From NCBI GenBank assembly GCA_947455465.1, contig CANGNS010000006.1, positions 62,001-126,000 of the forward strand: 64,000 nt of DNA, read 5' to 3'. The position numbers and the translations under genes were made by a program. Position 1 is the stretch's first letter. Every line of letters begins with the position of its first letter. The stretch comes from Comamonadaceae bacterium. GTDB taxonomy: Bacteria; Pseudomonadota; Gammaproteobacteria; Burkholderiales; Burkholderiaceae_C. This document shows, in pieces, positions 28,073 through 32,361 of the stretch. Under the pieces are notes generated by a model, which searched no databases, was not told the origin of the DNA, and worked only from the letters and a program-made list of their open reading frames with translations.

Positions 28073-28318
28073 ATGGAAACGGTGCAGATTCGCGAGGCCA
28101 AGGCCAGTTTTTCTGCCTTGGTCGCAGCAGCAGAAAAAGGCCAGCCCACCTTGGTCAGCCGCCATGGCAAGCCCTGTGCCTTGATCGTGCCGGTGGCCGA
28201 TGGTGCGCGCTTGTACCCGCTGGAGATGCCCAATCTGGCCAATTACCTTTTGGCCATGCCCGAACCGCTAAGGACCGAGCGCGACGCCACACCGTTGCGG
28301 GGTGTAGATTTTGCATAA
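28073..28318 (+). CDS. Phd/YefM-type antitoxin
   Basis: An 81-residue antitoxin. METVQIREAKASFSALVAAA is the typical Phd/YefM start (beta strand then helix forming the DNA-binding dimer), followed by RHGKPCALIVPV. The C-terminal ~30 residues would wrap the toxin. Its stop overlaps the PIN toxin start by a few bases. CGGAGG at 28061-28066 is the ribosome-binding site. Confidence 0.9.
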   Translation: METVQIREAKASFSALVAAAEKGQPTLVSRHGKPCALIVPVADGARLYPLEMPNLANYLLAMPEPLRTERDATPLRGVDFA

Positions 28319-28778
28319 AGGCTATTTGCTTGATACGAGTGTGGTGTCGGTTCTCACGCCGGGACGGGAAGCTTTTATTCCTGAACATTTGCGCCAATGG
28401 CTGCAGGCCCACCATGAAAAGCTGTTCATCCCCTGCATTGCCATTGCCGAATTGGCGCAAGGCATTGGTAAGTTGCGCCGCGCGGGCGGGGCAGAGCGGG
28501 CCGATCGTTTGGATCGCTGGCTGGACGGCCTGCTGAGCGCATACAGCGACCGCATATTGCCGCTGGATGCGCAGGCGGCACGCCTGGCGGGGCAAATGTC
28601 AGACGCTGCCATGGCCCAGGGCCGCCATCCGGGCTTTGCCGACGTTGCTATAGCAGCCCTGTCGCAAAACGCCCAGTTGGTATTACTCACCGCTAACCTG
28701 AAGCACTTCAAGCCTTTGGGTGTGGCTTGTTGGGACCCATTAAGCACATTGCCTACGGATGCCTCAGCCATCCCATAA
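28311..28778 (+). CDS. PIN-domain (VapC-type) toxin ribonuclease
   Basis: A 155-residue PIN-domain RNase. Acidic residues expected in the Mg-binding site are present: D in YLLDTSVVS (about residue 8), E in IAELAQGI (~47), and the pair in PGFADVAIAALS (~114-118). VapC toxins cleave specific tRNAs or rRNA. It starts at TTG 28311, overlapping the antitoxin stop (28316-28318); no ATG is available before the first catalytic Asp. All motifs look intact, so the pair is probably functional. Confidence 0.85.
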   Translation: MHKGYLLDTSVVSVLTPGREAFIPEHLRQWLQAHHEKLFIPCIAIAELAQGIGKLRRAGGAERADRLDRWLDGLLSAYSDRILPLDAQAARLAGQMSDAAMAQGRHPGFADVAIAALSQNAQLVLLTANLKHFKPLGVACWDPLSTLPTDASAIP

Positions 28779-28788
28779 TTCACTTCCC

Positions 28789-29349
28789 ATGCCAAGCCCG
28801 ACCCACTTTTCAATTTGCGTGTACTGCGGTTCTCGTCCTGGCACTGATCCGCGCTTTGCCCAATCGGCTCGCTGTACCGGCGCTTGGATCGGAAGCCAGG
28901 GCTGGGAACTGGTGTACGGAGGCGGCAAAGTCGGGCTGATGGGCATGGTGGCCGACGCCACGCTGGCCGCAGGCGGCACGGTGTATGGCGTGATTCCGCA
29001 AAATCTGATGGACAAGGAAGTGGGCCATACGGGCCTGACCGAACTGCATGTGGTGGACACCATGCACACGCGCAAAACCATGATGTTTGAACGCGCCGAC
29101 GCGTTTGTGGCCCTGCCTGGTGGTATAGGCACTTTCGAAGAGCTGTTCGAGATCTGGACCTGGCACCAACTGGGCGTGCACCGCAAGCCCTTTGGGCTGC
29201 TCAATGTGGGCGGCTATTACGACCCGCTGATCGCCATGCTGGACGGCATGGTGGCGCAAGGCTTTTTGAGCCCGCAGGTACGCGAGTTATTGCAGGTGGG
29301 GACGGATGCGGCATCGCTCTTGCAGCGACTGGCTGACGCTGCATCCTAG
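28789..29349 (+). CDS. TIGR00730/LOG-family Rossmann-fold protein (nucleoside 5'-monophosphate phosphoribohydrolase)
   Basis: A 186-residue LOG-family protein. It opens with FSICVYCGSRPG and carries the PGGIGTFEELFEIWTW motif (GGxGTxxE) and the MHTRKTMMFERADAFVALP substrate segment. LOG enzymes release the base from nucleoside 5'-monophosphates, in plants activating cytokinins; bacterial homologues act in purine turnover. ATG 28789 is preferred to 28759, matching the family N-terminus. It converges with valS, 12 bases apart. Confidence 0.88.
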   Translation: MPSPTHFSICVYCGSRPGTDPRFAQSARCTGAWIGSQGWELVYGGGKVGLMGMVADATLAAGGTVYGVIPQNLMDKEVGHTGLTELHVVDTMHTRKTMMFERADAFVALPGGIGTFEELFEIWTWHQLGVHRKPFGLLNVGGYYDPLIAMLDGMVAQGFLSPQVRELLQVGTDAASLLQRLADAAS

Positions 29350-29361
29350 GCCAACTCGGTA

Positions 29362-32361
29362 TCAGGCCAGCCGCGCAAACTGCCCCTGTACCTTGCCTAA
29401 GGTGCTCTCAAACTCGGCCAGTCGCGCGCGCTCCTGGGTAATCACCGCAGGCGGCGCTTTCGCCACAAAAGCTTCGTTGGACAGTTTGCCGTGGGCCTTG
29501 GCAATTTCACCTTCCAGGCGTGCGATTTCTTTGGACAGACGCGCTTTTTCGGCGGCCACGTCCACCTCGATGAACAGGCACATGCGGATATCGCCGACCA
29601 CGGCCACCGGCGCGGCTTGGGCGGCGGCTTGCCAGGCCGTCTCGTCATCAAACACTTTGACCTCGCTGAGCTTGGCCAGGGCCTGCAAGGCCTTGGCGTT
29701 GGCGCGCATGAATTCGGCATTGCCCAGGGCAAACAAAGGCATTTTGGTGGCGGGCGAGACGTTCATCTCGCCGCGTAAATTGCGGCAGGCATCCACCAGC
29801 GCCTTGAGTTGGCTGATGCTGGCCAGCGCCGCGGGGTCGACTTTGTCTAATTGCGCCTCGGGGTAGCGGGCGATGCTGACCGACGGGCCGGCCAGACCGG
29901 CCACGGGCGCCACTTTCTGCCAGAGTTCTTCGGTGATAAACGGGATCACCGGGTGCGCCAGGCGCAAGATGGCTTCCAGGGTGCGAATCAATGTGCGCCG
30001 GGTGGCGCGCTGTTGGGCCGCGTCGCCGTTTTGGATTTGCACTTTGGCAATTTCCAGGTACCAGTCGCAGTATTCGTTCCAGACAAACTCGTAAATAGCA
30101 GTGGCCACGTTGTCCAATCGGTACTCGGCAAAGCCTTTGGCTACCTGGTCTTCGGTTTGCTGCAAAAGCGAGCTGATCCAGCGGTCGGCCTGGCTAAATT
30201 GCATATAGCCGTGGGCTTTGCCGCCGGGCTGGCAGTCGGCTTTGGTGTGGTCCATGAGGCCGCAGTCCTGGCCTTCGCAGTTCATCAGCACAAAGCGGGT
30301 GGCGTTCCACAGTTTGTTGCAAAAATTGCGGTAGCCCTCGCAGCGCTTGCTGTCAAAGTTGATGCTGCGCCCCAGCGATGCCAGTGCGGCAAAGGTAAAA
30401 CGCAGCGCGTCGGCGCCGTAGGCGGGGATGCCTTCGGGAAATTCTTTTTGGGTGTTTTTGCGCACCTGGGGTGCGGTTTCGGGTTTGCGCAGGCCTTGGG
30501 CACGTTTTTCCAGAAGGGGCTCCAGGGCGATGCCGTCGATCAGGTCCACCGGGTCCAGCACATTGCCTTCGGATTTGCTCATCTTTTTGCCCTGCGCGTC
30601 GCGCACCAGGCCGTGGATGTAGACGTGTTTGAAGGGCACTTTGCCGGTGAAGTGGGTGGTCATCATGATCATTCGGGCGACCCAAAAGAAGATGATGTCG
30701 TAGCCTGTTACCAATACGCTGCTGGGGAGATACAGGTCGTAGTCTCGCGGCGCGCTGGCGAGGGTGCCGGAATCGGCCTGGCTCATACGCGCTTCGCGCG
30801 CAAAATCGCTGCGTCCGACTCCGGCACCCTCGCCAGCAGCGTCCGGCCAGCCCATGGTGCTGAACGGAACCAAGGCGCTGGAGTACCAGGTGTCCAGGAC
30901 GTCTTCATCGCGTCGCAAGGTTTTGCCGGGCGCCTGGGCCTGGGCTTCTTCGGCGTTGCGGGCCACATAGACCTGGCCGTCTTCGTCATACCAGGCCGGA
31001 ATTTGGTGGCCCCACCACAGTTGGCGGCTGATGCACCAGTCTTGGATGTTGTTCATCCATTGGTTGTAGGTGTTGACCCAGTTCTCGGGCACAAACTTCA
31101 CTTCGCCCGATTGCACGGCATCAATCGCTTTTTGGGCAATGCTTTTGCCGCTCGGGTCGTGGTCGCTGACCTTGTTCATGGCGACAAACCACTGGTCGGT
31201 CAGCATGGGCTCGACCACCTGGCCGGTGCGGGCGCAGATAGGCAGCATCATGGTGTGGGCTTTGATCTCCAGCATCAGGCCCAGGGCTTCGAGGTCGCGG
31301 TTGACGGCTTTGCGCGCTTCAAAACGGTCCAGGCCTTGGTAGGCGGCCGGGCCGTTCTCGTTAACTTTGGCGTCCAGCGTAAAGATGGTGATCAGCGGCA
31401 AGCCGTGGCGCTGGGCGCAGGCGTAGTCGTTGAAGTCGTGTGCGCCGGTGATCTTGACGCAGCCCGAGCCGAAGGCGCGGTCCACGAAATCGTCAGCGAT
31501 GATGGGGATTTGCCGGTTGCACAAGGGCAGATCAACCATTTTGCCTACCAAGTGCGCATAGCGCTCGTCCTCGGGGTGCACGGCCAGGGCGCCGTCGGCC
31601 ATCATGGTTTCGGGGCGGGTGGTGGCAATCGTCATACCTTTTTGCAGCACCCCATCGATCTGCTGGGGGCCGTCGGCAAAGGGGTAGCAGATGTAGTGCA
31701 TCTTGCCGGCCGACTCGGTGGCTTCCACCTCCAGGTCGGAGACCGCGCTCATGAGCACCGGATCCCAGTTGACCAGGCGTTTGCCCCGGTAAATCAGGCC
31801 TTGTTCGTACAGGCGTACGAAGGTGTCGGACACGACGGCGCTGAGCTGCGGGTCCATGGTGAAGTATTCGCGGCTCCAGTCCACGCTGTCGCCCATGCGG
31901 CGCATTTGCTCGGTGATGGTGTTGCCCGACTGCTCTTTCCACTCCCAGACCTTGGAAATAAAGTTTTTGCGCGCCAGGGCCGGCGTCTCGCCCATGGCGT
32001 GGCGGCTGATGCCCTGGGCCTGGAGCTGGCGCTCCACCACGATTTGGGTGGCAATGCCGGCGTGGTCGGTGCCGGGCACCCAGACGGTGTTGTGGCCGCG
32101 CATGCGGTGGTAGCGCGTCAGGCTGTCCATGATGGTTTGGTTGAACGCATGGCCCATGTGCAGTGTGCCGGTCACATTGGGGGGCGGCAACTGAATGCAA
32201 AAGGCCGCTTCGCCCGCCTTGGCGGCGCCGCTGCCACGGTGGCCGGCTGCGCCGTAGCCGCGTTTTTCCCACTCGGGGCCCCAATGGGCCTCCAAAGCGG
32301 CGGGCTCAAAGGACTTGGAGAGGGATTGCAAACCAGGCTGGTCAGGAGGCGTATTGGACAT
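29362..32361 (-). CDS. valS: Valyl-tRNA synthetase with in-frame palindromic insertion
   Basis: A 999-residue class Ia synthetase charging tRNA-Val. The HIGH motif is in [14 protein letters not shown] (~55), and KMSKS is in [13 protein letters not shown] (~585). The editing domain follows the first Rossmann half, and a C-terminal coiled coil (about 930-999) is present. Residues 509-536 ([12 protein letters not shown] through SGTLAS) are an extra segment after FSTMGWPD, coded by an 84-bp inverted-repeat element (30754-30837). Without it the protein would be about 970 residues, near the family norm. ATG 32361 is the start; the open frame beyond it to 32823 is an artefact. Confidence 0.95.
30754..30837. 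repeat. 84-bp palindromic element inserted in frame in valS
   Basis: Terminal arms GCTGGCGAGGGTGCCGGA (30754-30771) and TCCGGCACCCTCGCCAGC (30820-30837) are exact 18-base inverted repeats, and pairing continues past one mismatch for four more bases. Inside, CGCGC-TTC-GCGCG (30788-30800) forms a second hairpin. The total is exactly 28 codons without a stop in the valS frame. The layout recalls Rickettsia palindromic elements, which insert in frame in genes, or REP/MITE-like elements. I saw no second copy in this window. Confidence 0.8.

Follow-up and report, generated by a model that had tools for sequence, protein, structure and literature searches.

The window, the whole stretch of DNA analysed here, comprises 64,000 nucleotides from a Comamonadaceae bacterium. 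On its minus strand, the essential gene valS (29362..32361, read from 32361 to 29362) encodes a valyl-tRNA synthetase of 999 amino acids, as judged by its translation and by a phmmer match to the ValRS 1gax (E = 9e-186). The gene contains an 84-bp hairpin element (30754..30837, minus strand), which constitutes codons 509-536 and was delimited by its inverted arms, its fold, and profile and covariance models. The element's own plus strand is the minus strand of the window, that is, the same orientation as valS (here called F). A sequence-only reading had described a stop-free, in-frame palindrome of 28 codons, and both the arms and the translation of valS bear this out, every one of the 28 codons in the 84 bp being whole and a sense codon. 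The exact 18-base arms of that reading are present, but only as the outer part of longer ones: an inverted-arm search placed the 5' arm of the stem at 30815..30837 and the 3' arm at 30754..30776 (element strand, minus in the window), each 23 nt long, complementary at 22 of 23 positions (96%) and spaced 38 nt apart.

Between the arms, family alignments place a core region (30782..30807, minus strand; family pattern GAYTTGGCRAGCGNAGCGNNTNTGAG), from which the window copy deviates in having T at core position 6 and C at position 10. The loop had been said to hold a hairpin of its own, and RNA folding indeed gives a GCGAAGC mini-hairpin with a GNA triloop (30791..30797, minus strand), the variable N of which was counted across copies. 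Mini-hairpins with GNA triloops are unusually stable in DNA. Folded as DNA, a 104-base stretch that includes the element reaches -43 kcal/mol, compared with -26.7 (SD 2.6) for shuffled sequences (z = -6.2), and none of 200 shuffles folded as well. The 84-bp sequence had no match in the plasmid collection. Adjoining valS are two ORFs (28311-28778 and 28759-29349) that by eye resemble a PIN-domain protein and a LOG-family protein, respectively.

The ValS stretch that precedes the insert located valS in 77 of 103 genus genomes, the window's genome among them. The 76 other valS regions were taken, and the linker site was wholly readable by script in 67. Between FSTMGW and the DLYLPSS block, the linker at these 67 sites is 5 amino acids (PEKTQ-like) in many relatives, 9 to 23 in others, and 32 to 117 where a repeat is present. 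The linker of the window's ValS is 34 amino acids, a net gain of 29 residues over the 5-residue form, and alignment to 1gax puts the insert between residues 472 and 475 of that protein. Insertion into a tolerant linker, as had been proposed, thus agrees with the aligned relatives, many of which do without the insert. An AlphaFold model of the window's ValS had a mean pLDDT of 56.8, with residues 485-676 below 50, values too low to bear on the position of the insert.

A profile search (nhmmer matches with E up to 1e-4) found 40 copies of the element in valS, spread over 30 of 103 genus genomes, and all 40 keep the 84-nt register with no insertions or deletions. Thirty copies run in the direction of valS (F) and 10 against it (R). 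Genes carry one to three copies, nine genomes having two or three per valS, and an additional valS copy, from G084, was found on L167. Frame 0 is open on both strands in all 40, and the R copies translate as GLAPTRFARNVAAPGSG and similar; thus, either strand of the element can be translated. Frame 0 was open in 49 and 61 of 75 non-valS copies (two strands), where stem starts vary and the frame is therefore not identical, and in 409 and 484 of 800 shuffled controls. Three further matches (L003, L006, and L017) were judged by eye to be chance coding matches and were rejected as copies. A different ValS loop, after a YVARNEAEA-like stretch, holds an unrelated longer sequence in L121, L123, L124, and L125.

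The state of the valS linker has changed repeatedly. A ValS tree built without the linker, with four states of the linker distinguished, requires 26 or more transitions between them, the tree having been made by a quick method with SH-aLRT support only, with 29 of 100 inner branches below 80. It has 105 rows from 109 loci, as three loci gave no site and L250, which lacks the upstream part, was omitted. Near relatives differ in the linker; for example, one locus with the element (L103) and one with an 11-amino-acid linker (L087) are 80 to 100% identical in 30-nt windows on both flanks. In other pairs that differ in the linker, the adjoining DNA has diverged too, and exchange of linker alleles is therefore as likely as fresh insertion. 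Comparison of linker alleles gave no target-site duplication and no exact empty site, and the alleles differ also beside the insert. This place in valS can also hold another in-frame palindromic repeat, E2, which stands there instead of the element in L070 (G012) and L068 (G083) and together with it in L167, L186, and L251. Thus, the ValS linker accepts unrelated in-frame repeats. Of 26 genomes searched, E2 matched 13, all within the genus, with up to 47 matches in one genome, and it often forms direct tandem repeats about 80 nt apart.

The element belongs to a family with a core of about 26 nt (GAYTTGGCRAGCGNAGCG..T.TGAG) that includes the GNA mini-hairpin and a stem of about 23 bp. A covariance model of the 40 valS copies had matches in 51 of the 103 genus genomes (E up to 0.01, strict filters). 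Strong matches (E up to 1.4e-11) lay at valS by coordinates, and weaker ones lay mostly outside it, apart from the valS copy of G006 (2.2e-7) and a few valS copies echoed on the opposite strand; twenty regions with matches were retrieved for inspection. A second covariance model matched at least 61 of 397 genomes of the bacterial family and at least 28 of 126 genera, both of which are lower bounds because 12 candidates per genome were scored. A deeper search of four genomes with this model yielded 11, 11, 18, and 12 sites. For the window's genome, the model returned the valS copy plus two weak matches (E = 0.005 and E = 0.006) that by eye are only partly family-like. The sequence-only reading had suggested a repeat-like element. 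Copies at other places in other genomes support the suggestion, but with one strong and two weak matches the element is not multicopy here.

An exact scan for the core in a collection of 84,980 species returned 113 stretches. The 80 of these that were listed are titled Rhodoferax, Limnohabitans, Polaromonas, Giesbergeria, Hydrogenophaga, Hylemonella, or Comamonadaceae or bear unspecific titles (Burkholderiales, Burkholderiaceae, beta-proteobacterium, Pseudomonadota, or bacterium), with outside titles for a Sulfuritalea MAG (L248) and a Verrucomicrobia MAG (L226), the latter having the core and no stem. Among the matches listed, the hairpin family is seen mainly in Comamonadaceae. Grouping of 107 copies by flanking DNA gave 31 in valS, 18 beside mutL, 17 between argG and murB, 10 before pyrC, 6 between coaBC and pyrG, 5 between argC and recX, and the remainder in smaller groups and 8 singletons, of which L250 and L251 are likewise in valS; gene names were checked at one locus per group and otherwise assigned by eye. 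The valS group covers titles of several genera, and the other large groups have Limnohabitans and unspecific titles. The opposite picture, in which all relatives carry the segment, the arms are unconserved, and there are no other copies, was checked and does not hold.

In the twenty retrieved regions, copies outside valS are intergenic pairs or lie inside uvrA-like ORFs. In five of these regions, copies lie within long ORFs that have a UvrA-like start and are stop-free through the elements. Where complete, these ORFs are of double length, at 2229, 2113, and 2158 amino acids (L151:1244-7933 with four elements, L152:2326-8667 with four, and L162:1210-7686 with two), and those of L153 and L161, with three elements each, are truncated by the edge of the region. 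Twelve of the 16 elements are antisense to the gene, and the one ORF checked, that of L151, is UvrA by NCBIfam. Close pairs are mostly arranged head to head, as in 17 of 22 pairs in set A5, 7 of 9 in A4, and 11 of 14 in A2 (the sets share genomes). All nine multicopy valS genes have a head-to-head pair, and G019 has a direct pair as well. At argG-murB, some strains (L281, L222, and L258) have a head-to-head pair about 45 nt apart, whereas in L238 (1379-2469), L273 (2049-3973), and L244 (4546-6968) two elements flank about 1 to 2 kb. The small genes so enclosed differ, one encoding a 193-amino-acid protein and others a helix-turn-helix protein among others, and in L244 the 3' end of argG is repeated.

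The loop is conserved, and the stem varies in sequence while remaining paired. The cleanest test of the stem rests on copies found through the core alone, 90 of which have full flanks. Stem scores exceeded the 99% point of controls (12) in 82 of the 90, with a median of 21 versus 7, the controls being 6544 flank pairings across different locus groups (mixing within the same locus gave a 95% point of 19). Scores fell below 11 in four copies, L226, L235, L239, and L256, and the stem segment had a median of 23 and a range of 7 to 37 over the 90 copies. Among 107 model-aligned copies, 94.0% of stem cells were paired and covariation was 0.938, against 0.192 (SD 0.010) in shuffles, with 0 of 500 as high, figures that come from alignments fitted to the structure and from stem cells that are not independent events. 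All 23 pairs changed on both sides somewhere, but 149 of 500 shuffles equaled this, and we give it no weight. In the mutL group, which is orthologous and intergenic, comparison of 8 copies shows changes in both partners at 9 of the 23 pairs. Stem sequence varies freely even inside one genome (G079). The triloop of the GCGNAGC mini-hairpin is GAA in 71 of the 107 copies, GCA in 26, GTA in 4, GGA in 1, and other or absent in 5. A conserved loop on a hypervariable yet self-complementary stem suggests that selection acts on a single strand in its folded form.

Which strand is folded is suggested by the mismatches. G.T on one strand corresponds to A.C on the other, and a pair can change via G.T. 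Read on the element strand, 92 exact-core copies have 162 G.T and 28 A.C cells, which are not independent events, and 87 and 27 remain when a given column and type may contribute a single count per locus group; the pyrG and argG groups are near even (6:4 and 7:4, respectively). In valS, the ratio is 55:13 for F copies and 40:1 for R copies. The element strand also folds better in 103 of 107 copies as RNA and in 97 of 107 as DNA, including all 10 R copies and 29 of the 30 F copies in valS, an asymmetry in fold energy to which the fixed core contributes part. Because the G.T excess persists in R copies, in which the mRNA is the other, unfavored strand, the constraint is one on the element and not on valS mRNA. 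We infer a constraint on a single strand of the element, either as single-stranded DNA or as an RNA of its own.

Alternatively, the hairpin might be kept near-perfect by neutral upkeep, with template switching or conversion between the arms maintaining a functionless element, an account we consider rather unlikely. Such upkeep has been proposed for coding palindromes in the mitochondria of Nematomorpha, which likewise have paired arms within coding genes and are gained and lost (PMC6649704). Moreover, one member of the mutL group, L237, combines the 5' arm of L282 with the 3' arm of L207 and leaves three pairs unmatched, which indicates that arms or alleles have been exchanged and that such exchange of arms can occur. 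Neutral upkeep, however, predicts neither a one-strand excess of G.T over A.C nor a near-fixed core, and neither a conserved loop core nor strand asymmetry is reported for Nematomorpha in the part of that paper covered here.

That the element is an ordinary member of a described family, whether GTAG/CGTC REP, Rickettsia RPE, or BRE, seems quite unlikely to us. According to PMC3733652, REPs form head-to-head dimers, have G.T pairs in their stems, and occur both between and within genes, including in frame in uvrA and tRNA-synthetase genes, all as seen here. The sequence-only reading had held that a betaproteobacterial element within an aminoacyl-tRNA synthetase gene would be noteworthy; as stated, that view is not supported, as in-frame palindromic repeats in tRNA-synthetase and repair genes outside Rickettsia are already published for GTAG/CGTC REPs there. 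REP stems are, however, 5 to 13 bp and tagged, whereas the present stems are about 23 bp, of free sequence, and essentially without tags: across the 6 nt that adjoin the best stem segment externally, GTAG occurred in none of 83 copies on the 5' side, CGTC in none on either side, and CTAC in one of 84 on the 3' side. The family thus differs from REPs in both tag and stem. RPEs are palindromic and lie in frame within protein genes (same source, in part), like the copies in valS and the long uvrA-like ORFs, but their arm identity is said to fade with time (PMC6649704, in part), whereas here the arms stay complementary by paired changes, the core is near-fixed, and the hosts are of another class. 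BREs, of 75 to 91 bp, are similar in size, GC content, and host group, being found in Rhodoferax and Polaromonas with some copies wholly coding, but they are arranged as tandem repeats with few nucleotides between copies and are frequent in Bordetella (PMC3110155, in part). The close pairs of the element are instead mostly inverted, no Bordetella title is among the 80 of 113 core stretches listed, and the tandem repeats of BRE better suit E2, which is direct tandem. The family is like REPs and RPEs in its in-frame tolerance and head-to-head pairs, with RPE and BRE judged by their published descriptions. Literature searches found no description of this hairpin family.

Very unlikely, in our view, is a structured RNA by which the valS mRNA would be regulated in its translation or stability. 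The hairpin is strong, three-quarters of the 40 copies (30/40) are sense, and the valS site is common to several genera. The 10 antisense copies and the wobble pairs on the antisense strand argue against it, as do the many relatives with a 5-amino-acid linker or another repeat and the copies that are intergenic or within uvrA-like genes. Moreover, nothing reached gathering score in Rfam among eight loci, the window site having weak matches below it. Finally, that the insert was selected as protein, as a useful ValS linker, is most improbable despite the open frame of all 40 copies on both strands, as open frames merely show that stops are not tolerated and linkers range from 5 to 117 amino acids with F, R, both, or the unrelated E2.

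With moderate confidence, we favor the reading that a short, noncoding hairpin of a Comamonadaceae-centered family inserted itself in frame at a ValS linker that tolerates it, where its translation merely adds a harmless spacer of 28 residues. In-frame copies may be kept in valS because the length and sequence of the linker are free there. The constrained form would be one element strand, either a single-stranded DNA hairpin that presents the core and the GNA mini-hairpin or an RNA of that strand. A putative protein would recognize the core and require merely a stable stem of any sequence, and stems could drift by compensating changes because any stable stem would suffice. Perhaps the core-reading protein is an HUH-type single-strand transposase or recombinase, which would spread the element as head-to-head pairs or singles. 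No mobilizing enzyme, such as the RAYT gene associated with REPs, came to light: all 22 genomes tested have Y1 transposase (Y1_Tnp) genes, whether or not they carry elements, and by eye none of the listed Y1 genes is adjacent to a listed element. The shared positions suggest stable sites rather than active mobility.

The conserved core, compensating stem, both orientations, strand asymmetry, and shared positions go beyond what the sequence-only reading had claimed. Tentatively, they may define a class of hairpin that is conserved in structure only, in which a protein that recognizes the core works on one single strand with any stem, the element spreads and persists at shared sites, and the ValS linker is a protected in-frame home in both orientations. 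What moves in-frame palindromic repeats, and whether the hairpin matters within the gene, is an old question. Here, across many species, a single gene site is found with the element sense, antisense, doubled, replaced by an alternative, or absent, and the asymmetry of G.T and A.C distinguishes selection on the element from selection on host mRNA, which makes the question testable.
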